Source of the DNA: Microbotryomycetes sp. JL201
Taxonomy: Eukaryota; Basidiomycota; Microbotryomycetes
Reading direction: 5' to 3'
Length of the DNA stretch: 64,000 nucleotides
Assembly: GCA_033819885.1 (NCBI GenBank)
Contig: JAQYUZ010000026.1
Coordinates: forward strand, 1-64,000
Shown here: piece by piece, positions 31,880-39,153 of the stretch
How the letters are laid out: every line of letters begins with the position of its first letter
Numbering within the stretch: position 1 is the first letter of the stretch
The notes under the pieces: generated by a model
Databases searched by the model: none
Told to the model about the DNA's origin: nothing
The model's input: the letters and a program-made list of their open reading frames with translations, nothing else
Translations under genes and position numbers: made by a program

Positions 31880-32205
31880 TCACGCGGGTTGCCTACCGTT
31901 TGAAAAACGGAGCGGGTTTTTCTGTGCGTGCCGACACCTTGATGCTGTAGGCTTTGTCCACTGATAAATTTGCACCAAAATCCAGCAGCATGTTTTTCAC
32001 ATGTACAGAAGTCATTCTTGCAACTTTGGCGGGATACATGCCATGTCATCGCCTGAAACCACTTGCGGAAGAATTCTGTGCGTCTGTCAGTGCGTCTTTC
32101 TCGCACCTGCGCTTTGCTCTGCGTTCCTGCAGCAAAATCTGCGTCCTGCATTCTCTGCGTTCCCTGCGCTCTTTGTGCGCGATCTCTGCAGAGCAAACGC
32201 ACAGG
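31880..32205 (+). repeat. Inverted repeat, left arm
   Basis: Reads GTGCCGACACCTTGATGCTG inward at about 31929 and continues through TAAATTTGCACCAAAAT, CATGTTTTTCACATGTACAG and CTGCAGAGCAAACGCACAGG. The reverse complement occurs at 33070-33400. The inner ~280 bp are nearly identical; outside about 31907 the match fades gradually rather than stopping sharply. No clean target-site duplication was found. Confidence 0.8.
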
Positions 32206-32539
32206 CCCCGCAGGCCCTGCGAACCAAACGCAGGGAACGAGCTAAGCACGCGCAGATTCCATGCTCAGGGCTTTGTGGCCTGCCGTGAAGCGACCTCCTC
32301 CAAGATTTTGGCCCCACCTGGTCGATCGCGAAGCTTCATGACCCTGTGACCGCATGTCAAGTCCATGAGACCTCACAGTGGCAAACTCCGCGAACTCATG
32401 TTCGACCTTCATCAAGCCACAGCTTATGGATGGCACGAGCTTGCTTAGCACCGTACAAAATCCTGATCTGAAGCTCAGGAACCACCACAAGGCACGCTTC
32501 GGTTTTGTTCCGTGAGCCTGTACGACGATTACTCCTACT

Positions 32540-32830
32540 GTGGCTGTTCTACAGGCACCTTGCGGTCGCTGTAAGCAACCAGTCCCAGGTAAGCAGAAGA
32601 ATGCTGCTGGTTCAATTTGTGTGTTGTGCACGGAAGTGTTTCACAAGAAGTGCAATCCGGCAGTGCCTCTCCCGGCAGACCAAGGAATGACCGATGGATT
32701 GCAAACGGTTGCAGGACCGTTCCAGGTTTGCGATCAATGTTATCGTCAAACCCACGGCGTCTTCCTCTTGGATGGCGACGCACTATGGACGGGGCTGTAT
32801 GACGACTCAGTAGAGATCATTGGATCTTGA
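32540..32830 (+). CDS. Small cysteine-rich ORF between inverted repeat arms
   Basis: Open frame ending at 32830 that reads CGRCKQPVPG, then ICVLCTEVFHKKCNP and FQVCDQCYRQ, so eight Cys and one His are spaced like a zinc-binding PHD/ribbon-type module. The frame has no ATG. An acceptor-like TTCTACAG just before GCACCTTGC suggests an unseen upstream exon. The pattern C-x2-C-x2-PV ... C-D-x-C-Y recurs in the tail of the recombinase-like protein at 34251. Real gene, captured gene or transposon-borne ORF cannot be told apart here. Confidence 0.45.
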   Translation: MAVLQAPCGRCKQPVPGKQKNAAGSICVLCTEVFHKKCNPAVPLPADQGMTDGLQTVAGPFQVCDQCYRQTHGVFLLDGDALWTGLYDDSVEIIGS

Positions 32831-33069
32831 TTAACTTGAGTTTGAAATGGTCGAGCTGCATTTGTATTGCTTCAACATGTATGCAGTTGTGTATGCGCAT
32901 CATGTCAGACGTGCAATCATAGTACAGACGTCGGTGCAGTGGCTGTGCAGAATGTGCACAAAAAGAGCGCGTTCTCTGCGTTTAGTGCGTGTGCTGTGCG
33001 AGGCCTGTGCGGTTGTGCGGGGTTTATGCGTTTACCCTGCAGCGAGCGCGCAGAGAGCGTTCAGTGCGC

Positions 33070-33400
33070 AGATCTTGCAGAGGCCTGTGCGTTTGCTCTG
33101 CAGAGATCGCGCACAAAGAGCGCAGGGAACGCAGAGAATGCAGGACGCAGATTTTGCTGCAGGAACGCAGAGCAAAGCGCAGGTGCGAGAAAGACGCACT
33201 GACAGACGCACAGAATTCTTCCGCAAGTGATTTCAGGCGATGACATGGCATGTATCCCGCCAAAGTTGCAAGAATGACTTCTGTACATGTGAAAAACATG
33301 CTGCTGAATTTTGGTGCAAATTTATCAGTGGACAAAGCCTACAGCATCAAGGTGTCGGCACGTACAGGAAACCCGCCCAGGGCTTCAATCGCGAAGGCGA
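33070..33400 (-). repeat. Inverted repeat, right arm
   Basis: Reverse complement of 31880-32205. The two arms are about 860 bp apart and enclose TGCG-rich degenerate sequence plus the small cysteine-rich ORF. Together they span about 1.5 kb. They could be the ends of a non-autonomous DNA transposon or an inverted duplication. Confidence 0.8.
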
Positions 33401-33420
33401 CAATGGGCCAAGTCTCGCTG

Positions 33421-33448
33421 ATTTTTTTTTTTTTTTTTTTTTTTTTTT
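33421..33448 (+). repeat. T homopolymer run
   Basis: An uninterrupted run of more than 25 T directly precedes the first copy of a ~30-bp direct repeat. No reverse transcriptase or SINE-like promoter is seen next to it. Confidence 0.85.
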
Positions 33449-33449
33449 G

Positions 33450-33480
33450 CTAAATAAACTATCCATTGCAATTGATCACT
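33450..33480 (+). repeat. Direct repeat, copy 1 (copy 2 at 33736-33766)
   Basis: The core AAACTATCCATTGCAATTGA with CTAAA before it and TNACTTG after it occurs at about 33450 and again at about 33736, each time behind a T-rich run. The two copies bracket the second diverged repeat unit. Confidence 0.75.
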
Positions 33481-33499
33481 TGGTCATCCTCAGGATAGA

Positions 33500-33722
33500 A
33501 CGGGGGAAGAGCAAAAATCCATTACGGACGAAGAGGAGTCCTCAGCTTCACATGCCTCGGCTTCAACAGTGTGGGATTCCGACAGGCGGTCGAGTCAATC
33601 GCCTGTCGGATACCCACTAAAACGAAGAGCCCCTCGTTTATCGGAGTCTTGCATGTGCTCGGTGGTGTAACTAGATTCTGGATTGGTCCATGTCATGGAG
33701 GATGGCTTCGGATGTGGTTGCT
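33500..33722 (+). repeat. Diverged repeat unit, copy 2
   Basis: Partner of 31394-31620 in direct orientation, as described there. It lies between the two ~30-bp direct repeats. Confidence 0.6.
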
Positions 33723-33917
33723 TTTCTTTTTTTTCTAAACAAACTATCCATTGCAATTGATTACTTGTGGTTGCCGACACGGCAACTAGCCAACAAGATG
33801 ACGAAGTACGTCTAGACATTCACGCCGCAGGTCCTGGACCTGTGAAAGAAAAGCTGCAGGGAACTGTTTGTGGAGTATATTTAAAGTCTAAAGCTCCCGA
33901 TTATCCACCGAAGACAC

Positions 33918-34016
33918 AGCGTTGTGGCGCAGCTGGAAGCGCGCAGGGCTCATATTTTCCGGAGTGTGTGACCCTGAGGTCGTGCGATCGAGACGCACCG
34001 ACGCTATATGTTTTTT
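33918..34016 (+). tRNA. Initiator tRNA-Met (CAT) with 16-nt intron
   Basis: Folds as a cytoplasmic initiator tRNA. The acceptor stem pairs AGCGTTG with CGACGCT, giving the initiator-specific A1:U72 pair. The D stem is GCGC/GCGC. The anticodon stem CAGGG/CCCTG supplies the three G:C pairs typical of initiators. The anticodon CAT is at 33951-33953. The T stem GTGCG/CGCAC carries the loop ATCGAGA, with A54 in place of T54 as in eukaryotic initiators. An intron of about 16 nt (33955-33970) sits after position 37. A run of nine T at 34021-34029 is a good Pol III terminator. The exons closely resemble yeast initiator tRNA as I remember it. Confidence 0.88.
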
Positions 34017-34020
34017 TTTG

Positions 34021-34029
34021 GCCCTGTCG
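34021..34029 (+). terminator. Pol III terminator of the tRNA gene
   Basis: Nine consecutive T begin five bases after the discriminator base of the initiator tRNA. Confidence 0.75.
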
Positions 34030-34250
34030 CTTGAAATGGGTGCTGCCAGCTCAACGGTATGGATTTCAGGCTTCTTAAAAGATCTATACCAGCGTATCTA
34101 CACTAGCTTCACGTCAGCCACCTGTGCGCGCGCGCTTCTCCGACCCTATGCTTCCCCAACAAGTCGAGCACTTTGACGACAGGTGGGTAATTCGGACACG
34201 GCGCGCCATGTACGGTCTGTGTGCACCGCTTTGGAATTGTTCCATGTTGT

Positions 34251-36114
34251 TCACAGTGGGCGACGTAGTGCTCTGTGGAACACCACTTGTGCTTGCGGGT
34301 TCGCTTCTTTGTACAGCTTCCAAGTGCGCACCCCCTGATTCATCACCTCTTCGACCTGCTGCGCCTTGTAACACTTGTCGCATTTTCGATGGCCTTGATG
34401 CCTTACTGGGCCGCCACACTTTTCACAGTTGCGATCCACAGGTTCGGGCTGCAGCTGCACGCCGGACTTTCTCTTTTTACTGCTCGTATGATGTCCTTTG
34501 CAGCGACAGATGCAGAGCTCGGGGCAGTCTTGATTAGTGTAGCCGGGACAAGCCTCCAGACGACGAGTCGAAAAAAAGTCGCAAGAGCATCGACAGCCTT
34601 CCAAGTGCCCTTCCTCTTCACATGCGCAAAAGAACGAGCCGCCGCCAGAGAACGTCTCGCATGCGACACCCCGGCATTATAGTTCTTGGACACGTACTCG
34701 ACCCAGCCCTCTTGTATTGCTTTGACCGCTCCTTTTCGACCTTTCGGCAAGACGGACGCAGGCAGTAGAGCATGATTGTCGCCTTGTCGGAGCGACGACG
34801 AAAGGCCGACGAGGAAACGCGATGCCGCATCAGCTCGCACACGCGCCAGATTGTCGATTGGAGTCGTCTGATTGAAGTCGACAGCCAGGGGTATCAAGAT
34901 AGACAATGTGTCTGTACAGCCGATCAGTTCGTCAAACTTTTTGAGCCAGCGCCGAGCGGTGCTTGAATGCAGCACACTGCGAATGTCAAAAGAGGTCAGG
35001 CAAGCCTTTCAATTCGGGGAACAGGAGAAAGACTGACCGGTGCGGAGCCTTGTCCCTAGCTGCGAGCTGAAGCACGTCCAAACGATCCGAAGGCCAGACG
35101 GTGCCAGACAAGTGCACGTTATTTTCATCGACGTAGTCAGCTAGCTCGTCTAGACCATATGTCGAGCGGTCGAGGCGATCGATTGACGTGAAGAGGACCA
35201 ATGTGTTCTTGAACTTGCGCCTGATGAGAGTATCTTTGATCGGCGTACCTGCCGCGCCAGACACGCCTGCGTACTCCGCATGAATGACTCTGAGCTCAGG
35301 TGGTAACATAAGAGAAAGCCAGGCCTGCTGCCGCTGTAATGAGTTGTCGGAGCCGGCGCGTGACGTTCGAGTGAATAGGATCGCGTGCTTCAGACTTTGC
35401 TTGCGAGCGAGCTGAGATAGTGCCTCTTTGAAGTCGGCCAGAAGACTCTGCTCTTTGAGTCGAGCTTCAAGCAAAACACGAATGAGCATCTCGGTGGAAC
35501 TTCCGTAGAACGAGCTCTCTTCGACTAGCAGCATTGCGTTCTCGATATGTGTCTTGGCACGATCAGCGTTGGCGCAAAGGTCGACCCAGACGTCATTCTC
35601 ACGAAGGCTCCGCTCGTCGGCTTCATCATCGCCATTCAGGCTCGCGTCCGCACTGTCCTCTTGCTCTGACTCTGGCTCGTCGCTATCAAGCTGATGTGAC
35701 TCGTTAGCATGCTTGGAGAGCATGAACATGCAGCGCATGTCTGAGTCTGCCTTCTGAAGCGCGGCGCAGAGCTCATCGATGTCCTCGACTCGGCGTGTGG
35801 CGCGGTCTAGATTTGTGACCAGCACGATCGTCTCCGGCTCAAGCAAATCATGTACGTGCTGGAAGGCACGACGCTGCTTAAAGGCATGCCGGAACGAGCT
35901 CCCGTGCTCAATCACGAGCTTCAAGTCGCCGACATTAGACCAGTCGGTCTCAATGTCGTCCGGCGGACTTTCCAGCATCGAGACGAGCTGACGGGCGAGG
36001 CGCACGTGCGAAAAAGGAGAGGTGCGAGGCTGTGATATTATGGCCTCAGCCTCTACCGGTGACAATCTCGGCGAGGGATGGGCGACTAAGCGGCAGCTCA
36101 GTCCAGCGACGCAT
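34251..36114 (-). CDS. Tandem serine-recombinase-like protein with Cys-rich tail
   Basis: Predicted 576-residue protein from exons 36114-36064, 36029-35038, 34976-34694 and 34655-34251. Domain 1 (residues ~18-130) reads PRTS, then RLARQLVSML, HGSSFRHAF and NLDRATRR followed by DIDELCAAL. Domain 2 (~230-335) reads AILFTRTSRAGSDNSLQRQQ, EYAGVSG and SIDRLDRS followed by LDELADYV. Each fits the resolvase/invertase catalytic pattern: R-x-S nucleophile, RQ, DRxxR. An acidic linker separates them. A helical basic region follows, then a tail from residue ~443 with 14 Cys (CRCSCDFF, LCICRCKGHH, NCEKCGGPVRHQGHRKCDKC), likely zinc-binding. The first exon and the 38-nt third intron are inferred from frame only. 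Naming as a recombinase rests on motifs, not on a database search. Confidence 0.6.
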
Positions 36115-36628
36115 CAAACAACGAAAAGCACGTCTGTGACGACCAGGTCACTGCTTGCATGACAATGGTGGCCGACCGCTAGCTATCGTGCCCTAGCGAT
36201 CGGTAAGTTCTCGATTTCAGGCGCGCCCGGAAAGGAGTTGTTGAGCTCGTTTCGATAGGTATGTCATATTGTCTTGCAACGTATCTTAAAGTCAGCGTCG
36301 ACGAAACGGTCCTTGCGGTCCTTGGTCGTCGCTCAGTAACAGCTTGATCCTTATTGGGGATCGACGTCGACAGTGACGATGATTTAAGCAGAGTCAAACT
36401 CTCGTTGCCAGCCATGCATCTTTGGTCCGAGACGCACAGCAAGACACCTTCTGCTGTGCCCAAAGCTCGTGATGTTGCGTTCTCGCCCTCGAACTTCAAA
36501 TGAACAAATTTTACGAGCTCCGCGAATCCTTCCGTAGCTTGCTCGTCAAGAAGAGAACCTTGGGATCTTGCTTTTTCGGTCAATGCTATCAACACCGCTT
36601 GAACTTTGCAACAAGTGATCTAGAGAAG
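36115..36628. other. Spacer between recombinase-like and ABC-F genes
   Basis: A minus-strand frame is open over 36179-36595 (ending KSRTYRSLGHDS) but has no ATG near its start and no recognisable domain. It could be an extra 5' exon of the recombinase-like gene or 3' UTR of the ABC-F gene; I cannot support either. Confidence 0.35.
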
Positions 36629-39153
36629 CTATCGGCTTTGCGCTGGCGCCGGCCTTCGCTTGAGCGCTTTCTCGACTTGCCTTACGTATGCATCCACGCC
36701 AGCGACGACCTGCAGCTGCCCTTTGTGCAGACGATACGTGACACCCTGTTCACTTGCCTCGTCCTCTTCACTCGAGCTTTCCCCGTCGTCGTCTTCATCT
36801 TCGGCCCCTGCGAGACCAGCCGTGGCCGTCTTGACAGACTCGCCCTCAACTACGACTCGCGAAAGCCATCGATCGTGAGTGATCAAGCAAATACCTCCTT
36901 GATAATGCCTCAGTGCCTGTGCTAGCGCAAGAACTGTGGCGAAATCCAGATGGGTTGAAGGTTCATCGAGAATGAGCGCGTGCGGTGGGTGGTAAAAGAT
37001 GAGAGCCAGAGCGAGGCGGACCTGTCACCAAGCTCAGCGAGGGTTCAAAATCATCATCTGTCAGCTTACCTTTTGCCCGCCACTGAGCACGGCAAGCGGT
37101 GTATCGCTAGCAACTTTGCCTTGCAGACCGACGGCGCTCAGGCAAGCGCGGGCTTCTGCCTCTGTCAGCTCGTCGCCTTGCTCCTTTGCGCGCATGCCCA
37201 GGTACGCTAGAGCAGTCATGGCCTCGCCCGTGTCCGTTTTGAGACCAGCATCCGTAGACAGTTGCTCGACAGACTCTTGCGCAAAATATGCAATGCGGGC
37301 CTGACTATGACGCGTAATTGCTCCCTTGGTCGGCAGCAGCTCTCCGACCATCAGCCGAGCGAGCGTCGTCTTGCCGGCACCGTTTGGTCCGAGTATCGCG
37401 ATCCGGCCCTTCGGCGACAGCGTTAAGCTTATGTTTTCTAGCTGTGCCCGGCCTTTGCGGGCAAACGAGACGCCATCAAGCGCAATCAAGTTGCCTGCCG
37501 CTCGTAGGTTAGACGGCGTGCCAAGCTTGATGGTGACCGACTTTTCGGGCGCTTCAATCTCGACTGCAGCTCGCCTCGACAAGTGGTAGCCGGCCATGTC
37601 GCGATTGACCTTGAATCGGGTACCCTTGGCGCTTGTTTCGACGCCGAATCGCTCGTCTAGCTTTCTCTGCCTCGACTTTGCCATGCGTTGTTTGTTCTCG
37701 TCTCCAGTCTTGCGGGCGCTGCTTGCCGCTTGCTGGATCGATTTTTCAATCTGCCGAAAAAGTCTCAGCAACGATACGCGAGGTCTTTTTGCTGGCTCAC
37801 GTGCTCGCGTTTGCGGTCCAGAGCGTCCCGAGTCTTGAGTGCGGCGCGGTACTTTTTGCGCTCTTCGAGCTGAAACGCAGCCGGATTACCCTCAAAGTAT
37901 CGCAACGACGCATCGCGGAGCACGATAGTCTCGTCAACAATATTAGACAAGAACTCTTGGTCGTGAGAAACGAGTACAACGGTTCGAGTCTGCTCTGACA
38001 AGTAGCCTTCGAGCCTGCAGAACACGTCAGATCTTGGCTATAAATGCAGATGACGCCACTTGCCAGAGAATCGCATCAAGGTCGAGAAAGTTGGTGCACT
38101 CGTCGAGCAACAGAATGTCAGACTCTATCAGAAGAGCGATGGCCAGAGAGCTTCGAGATTTCCAACCGCCAGAAAGGTGTTTGACGGGCGCGTCTATCTG
38201 TGCAGTGGAGAACCCGAGACCTCTGAGGATTGATCGAGCACGAGCCTCTCGTGTCGGACCGTTGAGCTGTGCACCGTTGCATGTCAGTGGCGGTCTCGTG
38301 CCTTGTGTCGCGCTCATTTACAAGTTCAAACTCTGCTTGCGCGTCTTGCAACTTTTGAGCTGCCAAAACGGGTGCCTCGCTTGCGTCCGGCGCCTCCCGT
38401 AGCCTTCAAAAGTACGATCAGCATCGTCGAGGCGTCTTCGAGCGCCCGACTCACTCCTGCTTTGCCTCTGCCACTTTGGCCTCTGCTTCGAGTTCCGACA
38501 GCCGGGCTGCCTTGCCTCTTGCACCGGATCTCCGTTGAGCAATCATTCTAGCTGCGTCTAGCTGTTCTTCTTTCTCTTCAAGCGAAAGTTTTAGCAGGAT
38601 CTCTTGCGTTTCGCGAATATCTGTCGATTCGACAGCCCTGTTGAGAACTTTCGAAGTAAAATTTTAGCTCTGGTCTCGTGCTCGTACACGAAACGTACTC
38701 TGACATCTTTGTTCTGCCTTGAGAGCTGCTTTGTCCCCCTTGATGACGTGCTCGAGCACTGTCGCCGTCGAGTCGATGACATCCTCGAGTTGATCAATTT
38801 GGCTGAGCAGACAGATCTTGAGTTTTGAATTGAGACCAGGAATCATCTTGTTGTTCAGTGCCTCCAACAATGTTGATTTGCCGGTCCCGTTCCTGCCCAG
38901 CTTTGAGGTTCGAGCGCACTCTCACCTTTGTCGAGCCGCGAATTGTCATTGCTCACCTGCCGACGAGCGCGTACTTGGTACCATTCTTGATCCTAACGTG
39001 AGCGTCCTGGAGCAGCACTCGCTCAATTTTGCCTGCGCCGACCGAAATTGTGACGTCGTGCAAGTCGACTTCGTGCGAGCTGTCGAGCGTATCGACGTGG
39101 AATCGCGACTGCTGGGCTGTGCAGTGAATCTGCTTCTTGTCGGCTGGTTTCAT
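36629..39153 (-). CDS. ABC-F family ATPase (twin cassette)
   Basis: Soluble ATPase with two ABC cassettes, of the ribosome-associated ABC-F class. The start MKPADKKQ at 39153 leads into SRFHVDTLDSSHEVDL and the first Walker A YALVGRNGTGKST. The first signature region includes VKHLSGGWKSRSSLA and the Walker B LLLDECTNFLDL. The linker is basic (KTRDALDRKREHVSQQ, MAKSRQRKLDERFG). The second cassette has ILGPNGAGKTTLARL, VLSGGQKVRLALA and ILDEPSTHLDF followed by ITHDRWLSR. An acidic insert and a C-terminal QVEKALKRR helix end the protein. Exons run through at least six short introns; not every border was fixed. The closest pattern I know is the poorly studied fungal group that includes fission yeast SPCC825.01. 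Confidence 0.85.

Follow-up and report, generated by a model that had tools for sequence, protein, structure and literature searches.

The first 64,000 nucleotides of contig JAQYUZ010000026.1 from the basidiomycete Microbotryomycetes sp. JL201 (GCA_033819885.1; hereafter the window) carry on their minus strand an open reading frame (ORF) with two tandem domains of the serine recombinase type. We consider it marginally probable that the ORF belongs to a single-copy eukaryotic, probably fungal, gene derived from bacterial serine recombinases, in which the two domains are followed by what are probably a segment of ~90 residues and a Cys-rich tail, and that the present copy is decaying or strongly diverged sooner than a working transposase. 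Judged from its sequence, the gene is a member of the PF00239 superfamily, with membership established in none of the sub-families tested. Its tandem architecture is unusual and was probably captured from bacteria, its integrity being uncertain, and what is new would be the arrangement of two domains in tandem, the first of them probably dead. The features concerned are listed below, C20 being another contig of the same genome and L013 a plasmid resolvase.

35038..36113, minus strand: exon 1, holding both recombinase domains; the open frame runs on to 34986
35727..36029, minus strand: domain 1 (residues 29-129), resolvase core with R38, R81, D103, R104, and R107 kept and Ala40 at the serine position in the L013 alignment
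35394..35726, minus strand: linker (residues 130-240), an acidic stretch, then helices predicted in a low-confidence model
35079..35393, minus strand: domain 2 (residues 241-345), resolvase core with R249, S251, D312, R313, and R316
34977..35037, minus strand: predicted GT-AG intron of 61 nt with good donor and acceptor, joining exon 1 to exon 2
34698..34976, minus strand: exon 2, frame VLHSSTARRW..., matched on C20 and without a Pfam family
34254..34676, minus strand: first part of the Cys tail, with 16 Cys over 141 codons; its homologues are C20:1522-1208(-) and C20:1556-1864(+)
34193..34336, minus strand: tail part 2, in a different reading frame (CALGSCTKKRTRKHKWCSTEHY...), homologous to the C20 tail end

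Both Halves of the ORF Match the Resolvase Family

The ORF at 34986-36113 (375 codons) is open throughout and matched the Pfam Resolvase profile PF00239 in two stretches (E 9.3e-12 combined). Split into halves, it exceeded the curated cut-off of 23.3 bits with each half alone, the N-half reaching 24.9 bits (E 2.4e-5; match beginning only at profile position 37) and the C-half 25.6 bits (E 1.5e-5). PHROGs profiles placed a DNA invertase on residues 79-125 (9.2e-5) and an integrase on residues 180-334 (1.4e-4), and the only NCBIfam match was XisF, whose 15.4 bits fall short of the cut-off of 375. Codon scores favored the ORF frame from ~36060 to 35040, with the first ~50 bases of the ORF failing to score as coding and a plus-strand frame tying near 35880-36000.

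A Pfam scan of ten long window ORFs gave matches at E <= 0.001 in seven, the families being AAA ATPase, myosin head, pirin, CLN3, DUF4149, ABC ATPase, and RRM (the AAA ATPase ORF also had a sub-threshold match to a fungal lid domain). Gene content, this lid match included, and short introns point to a fungal genome. Eukaryotic-type genes flank the recombinase exon on both sides, which excludes a bacterial contaminant contig. The initial annotation of this DNA had proposed that a eukaryotic gene carries resolvase-type domains in tandem and named the Pfam Resolvase profile as a check; the passing of each domain alone, the agreement of PHROGs, and the eukaryotic neighbors bear the proposal out. 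Across the whole genome (17,152,241 bases in 92 contigs, window included), a profile search found PF00239 in only two places, both within this ORF. With the ORF as query, the sole other match had an E of 0.29 and was interrupted by 4 stops, and a DNA-level search with 34200-36640 returned the self match only.

Domains 1 and 2 share one stretch of 21 residues (score 49, a value reached by 0 of 1000 shuffles), and BLASTP with shuffles gave a weak positive for internal duplication across 21-23 residues. The domain duplication claimed earlier is possible, though unproven. Helix E in the linker (residues 195-242) scored within the shuffle range for all six references.

Domain 2 Keeps the Catalytic Pattern and Domain 1 Probably Lacks the Serine

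Domain 2 carries the motifs FTRTS (247-251), RQQ, GVSG, and IDRLDR, so that the catalytic pattern is present as R249-T250-S251 and D312-R313-L314-D315-R316. Of the eight references, the phage DW2 integrase gave it the highest score (60; shuffles 27 ± 5, maximum 50). An Arg at the position of gamma-delta R45 is expected in an active serine recombinase; in the DW2 alignment Thr290 stands opposite the R-P arginine, and this equivalent is missing from domain 2.

The pairwise local comparisons used 200 shuffles for each of the eight references, the plasmid references being the best whole-ORF matches and two phage integrases having been picked by a search with domain 1. Domain 1 scored 91 (L013), 98 (L015), 85 (L034), 87 (L035), and 88 (L036) against alphaproteobacterial plasmid resolvases, with shuffle means of 25-28 (91 and 98 vs 25 and 28), 73 and 70 over 42 and 48 residues against the two phage integrases, and 32, inside the shuffle range, against Gin, these being selected scores because the references were chosen from the best search matches. 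Identity to L013 and L015 was 31 and 33% in one comparison and 26-29% in two others, and the best 20 of the 81 records matched by the whole-ORF search all aligned in the N-half of the ORF.

The domain 1 match is secure from strand 2 onward, including R81 (the R45 equivalent), D103, R104, and R107. Upstream of this, the best gap placement against L013 sets PRTSPFSHVRLA opposite PRT--FAYVRVS; RTS (residues 30-32) aligns at or beside the PRT that precedes strand 1 of bacterial resolvases, and R-x-S falls on R38-L39-A40, with Arg38 as the R8 equivalent. The L015 alignment places the gap otherwise, with the bacterial serine opposite R38, and neither alignment has a serine there. Hence the catalytic pattern that the initial annotation had read in both blocks stands for domain 2, with its R-x-S and DRxxR, but not for the R-x-S of block 1, which is probably non-catalytic, the active-site serine having probably been replaced by Ala40.

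A PDB search with alignment profile A1 was governed by the bacterial rows of that profile and was set aside. Folding of domain 1 without a multiple sequence alignment gave a poor, uninformative model (mean predicted local distance difference test score 47.1). The domain 2 model matched recombinases without significance: in VIA-align, 13 of the best 50 rows were identified as serine recombinases from their titles or from PMC6188088, with Z no better than that of unrelated rows.

A Cys-Rich Tail Shared with a Second Locus

A tail of 14 Cys had been claimed for the gene. There is a Cys-rich domain with C20 homologues (16 Cys in 141 codons), but it runs past the gene end then given, reaching 34193, and it occupies two frames with no clean splice from exon 2. 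The tail ORF (34254-34676) matched C20 with E 0.0012 and 0.0023 genome-wide (3e-12 against 6 kb), the homology within the window covering 34422-34613 (E 0.002) and, in the other frame, 34193-34336 (E 3.2e-5).

The relation to C20 extends upstream of the tail. The C20 minus strand at 2760-2602 aligns uninterrupted (score 67) with 10 residues at the end of exon 1 and 41 in exon 2, running over the exon 1/exon 2 join without the 61-nt intron, and C20:2534-2364 matches later parts of exon 2. A frame-aware score over this stretch reached 99, whereas 60 shuffles gave at most 47 and 48 other pieces of the genome at most 48; because exon 2 makes up most of the score, exon 2 is tied firmly to the C20 family and exon 1 weakly. 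The exon 2 Trp codon and the tail's first Cys codon stand 77 nt apart both in the window (34705-34628) and on C20 (2453-2376), a frame change of the same size at the same place in two copies that have both diverged. Independent sequencing errors would hardly explain this, and a common intron-like feature, a common frameshift feature, or inherited damage may lie behind it. That the Cys tail belongs to the recombinase gene is, on these alignments, likely but not secure.

On C20 the Cys tail is present twice, head to head, in a pair of inverted arms (929-1516 and 1556-2143; 89% over 588 bases, 39 bases apart), which continue as 840-934 and 2139-2233 (86%) to form a palindrome at 840-2233 near the contig start. 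One tail copy carries a TAG. The copies differ with a ratio of nonsynonymous to synonymous substitution (dN/dS) of 0.25 (dS 0.27, dN 0.07; 171 codons, stop codon excluded), which argues that the tail was formerly a domain under selection. The further claim that the tail binds zinc and recognizes DNA has its sole basis in the Cys spacing: the tail pieces had no match in Pfam, the tail profile none in the PDB, and none of the 1654 candidates for the tail alignment in the protein collection described below reached E <= 1.

Gene Boundaries and Splicing

No in-frame ATG lies upstream of domain 1, the first being residue 46, within the domain, where the public protein P0001 also begins. The top-scoring 5' candidate, an ATG at 36160 spliced to 36029 from a weak donor (score about 0), would start MQAPRTSP and resemble the MPRT start of bacterial resolvases; it is unproven. 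Codon scores weakly favored the exon 2 frame down to about 34680, and a targeted splice search found no good GT-AG intron from exon 2 into the Cys frame. Another gene-finder model had plausible splice consensus but fused the recombinase gene with the ABC ATPase gene, and was rejected. A coding-like stretch on the minus strand (36438-36619), assignable to no clear gene, lies between the recombinase exon and the ABC ATPase frame, which ends at 36629.

Relatives and Comparison with Known Systems

We searched 5.8 billion proteins (5125 candidates for the ORF, 237 for domain 2, and 1654 for the tail alignment) and found no relatives, or the window's own protein alone; none of 4 pattern matches in viral contigs and none of 26 in prokaryote genome contigs were confirmed. 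These scans detect close relatives only, and the collections appear poor in eukaryotic gene models, so that absence from other fungi is not established. Phage searches gave nothing useful.

Bacterial small serine recombinases have one catalytic domain and a C-terminal helix-turn-helix. Like these proteins (Tn3/gamma-delta resolvase, Gin; PF00239), domain 1 can be aligned from residue 29 to residue 129 with plasmid resolvases, of which L013 and L034 adjoin Tn3-family transposase genes, and domain 2 also exceeds the family cut-off. Unlike them, the window gene has two domains, probably a Cys tail, and an apparently replaced serine in domain 1. Large serine recombinases, such as phiC31 and the phage integrases, carry Cys in their C-terminal part, and the best match of domain 2 was the DW2 integrase; neither exon 1 nor exon 2 nor any tail piece drew a listed match to PF07508 or PF13408 at E <= 10, in searches whose HMMER filters drop most matches above 0.1.

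The eukaryotic serine recombinases in the literature compared are of the IS607 type, with one catalytic domain. According to PMC2715888, Saccharomyces kluyveri has six IS607-type genes whose products combine an N-terminal DNA-binding domain with one catalytic domain, and in two of the six the catalytic Ser is changed to Gly; IS607-like Fanzor2 elements are also known (PMC3627910). The window gene resembles these yeast proteins as a prokaryote-derived serine recombinase in a fungal genome and differs from them in its tandem catalytic domains and C-terminal Cys tail. Pfam detected no N-terminal helix-turn-helix in exon 1, whose 5' end is not fixed, and no TnpB or Fanzor was found near the gene, a genome search with PF07282 giving two sub-threshold places, both on contig C21. 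Passages of PMC6431247 mention serine recombinases for bacterial elements only, and no description of a eukaryotic tandem-domain form was found among the listings and abstracts examined in the open-licence literature.

Evidence against a Single Captured Gene and Alternative Explanations

Several results weigh against a single gene of recombinase descent. The ORF had no match in a phmmer search of PDB sequences, and the whole-ORF database search behind the plasmid references gave a best E of 0.06. In the structure searches, Foldseek returned 0 of 1279 matches at E <= 0.001, with unrelated folds at equal Z, and the domain 1 model drew no recombinase among the best 50 of 56 matches. The profile alignment covers only the second half of domain 1, so the placement of Ala40 is not final. 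All six ab initio settings started the gene at 35729 (residue 129), omitting domain 1; four of them gave a single-exon gene at 34986-35729, and none joined it to the tail. The C20 link to exon 1 amounts to ten residues only, a domain 2 remnant upstream of C20:2760 scored at shuffle level only, and no homologue joining the exons into one gene was found in the collections searched. The long open exon also counts against our reading, insofar as it speaks against advanced decay. Our confidence was lowered by the ten-residue link and by the omission of domain 1 from the ab initio models. As for the claimed capture from bacteria, the similarity of domain 1 to plasmid resolvases speaks for it, but neither the database search nor a tree of nine references and both domains does; in the latter, six of eight inner branches were open and end branches very long, and descent was not shown.

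The recombinase could have been domesticated, that is, captured and kept as a DNA-binding or chromatin factor in which neither domain cuts. The single copy of the recombinase domains, the Ala at the domain 1 serine, the Thr at the domain 2 R45 position, and the selection that formerly acted on the tail of the C20 copies (dN/dS 0.25) would agree with this; the tail frame changes, the lack of a secure start, the TAG in one C20 copy, and the retention of R, S, D, R, and R in domain 2 would not, and we regard domestication as unlikely. Slightly less likely again is that two or more neighboring genes or relics have been joined, exon 1 being an independent captured recombinase and exon 2 with the Cys tail belonging elsewhere. 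There is no clean splice into the tail, single-exon models arose in four of six settings, and C20 has exon 2 and the tail with ten exon 1 residues and no recombinase domain; against such a separation stand the intron at 35037-34977 with its good donor and acceptor, the continuity of C20 over the exon 1/exon 2 join, and the common strand and order.

Least probable, in our judgment, is an active or recently active eukaryotic mobile element using the two-domain protein as transposase or integrase. Dispersed repeats adjoin the gene, a related partial copy with an inverted duplication lies near the C20 start, and domain 2 keeps the nucleophile; however, the region 34200-36640 has no other DNA-level match, the recombinase domains occur once in the genome, no ends of an element were seen around the gene, and the neighboring repeats occur elsewhere without the recombinase region. 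The mobility suggested in the initial annotation is not supported, no element ends having been found and the C20 locus being a decayed partial copy. A decaying or strongly diverged captured gene rather than a working transposase remains our preferred reading, given the missing R45 equivalent in domain 2, the frame change in the tail, and the lack of a secure start.

Replacing the serine nucleophile of IS607 abolished transposition (PMC6188088), and by this rule domain 1 could not cut if Ala40 is correctly placed. In the captured gene, domain 1 would be, now or formerly, a catalytically dead pairing or scaffold half, and domain 2, with its serine as the only possible nucleophile, would cut or once have cut. 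One chain may thereby imitate a recombinase dimer with a single cutting half, and the Cys tail, presumably zinc-binding, would recognize DNA. More speculatively, and with about as little likelihood as we give to separate genes, this could be the founding member of a eukaryotic family with fused dead and live catalytic domains and a zinc-cluster tail; such a single-chain dimer would once have mobilized itself, leaving the C20 relatives behind as relics. If true, a tandem-domain protein whose first half is dead would amount to a recombinase naturally built as a single chain, a probe of why each dimer half must cut, and it would add a route for bacterial recombinases into fungal genomes. If merely a decaying relic, the gene would still record a capture unseen elsewhere in the collections searched.

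Repeats and Other Features of the Host Genome

Repeats adjoin the gene at 31.4-33.8 kb, in keeping with the repeat-rich setting described earlier for it. An element at 31915-33374 has 293-bp inverted arms (98% complementary) and recurs in full at C45:239626-241099 (94%) and in part at C28:5175-5643; by eye, its middle (~32570-32830, plus strand) encodes a short Cys-rich, PHD-like peptide. The stretch at 33422-33722 is a dispersed repeat: the query 33376-34260 gave 46 matches, including itself, on many contigs, mostly in this part. A 5S ribosomal RNA search of the assembly (17.15 Mb) found no match, 47 of its 715 first-look candidates having been scored. Contig C21 (218,852 bases) showed, by eye, a Fanzor1-like C-terminal motif ~530 bases from both ends (529-600 and 218253-218324), where PF07282 reached a sub-threshold 21.4 bits against a cut-off of 26.3. 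The matches on C21 fall in mirror pairs (529/218324, 103331/115522, and 104227/114626), and the contig as a whole looks like one large palindrome, either true or an assembly artefact.
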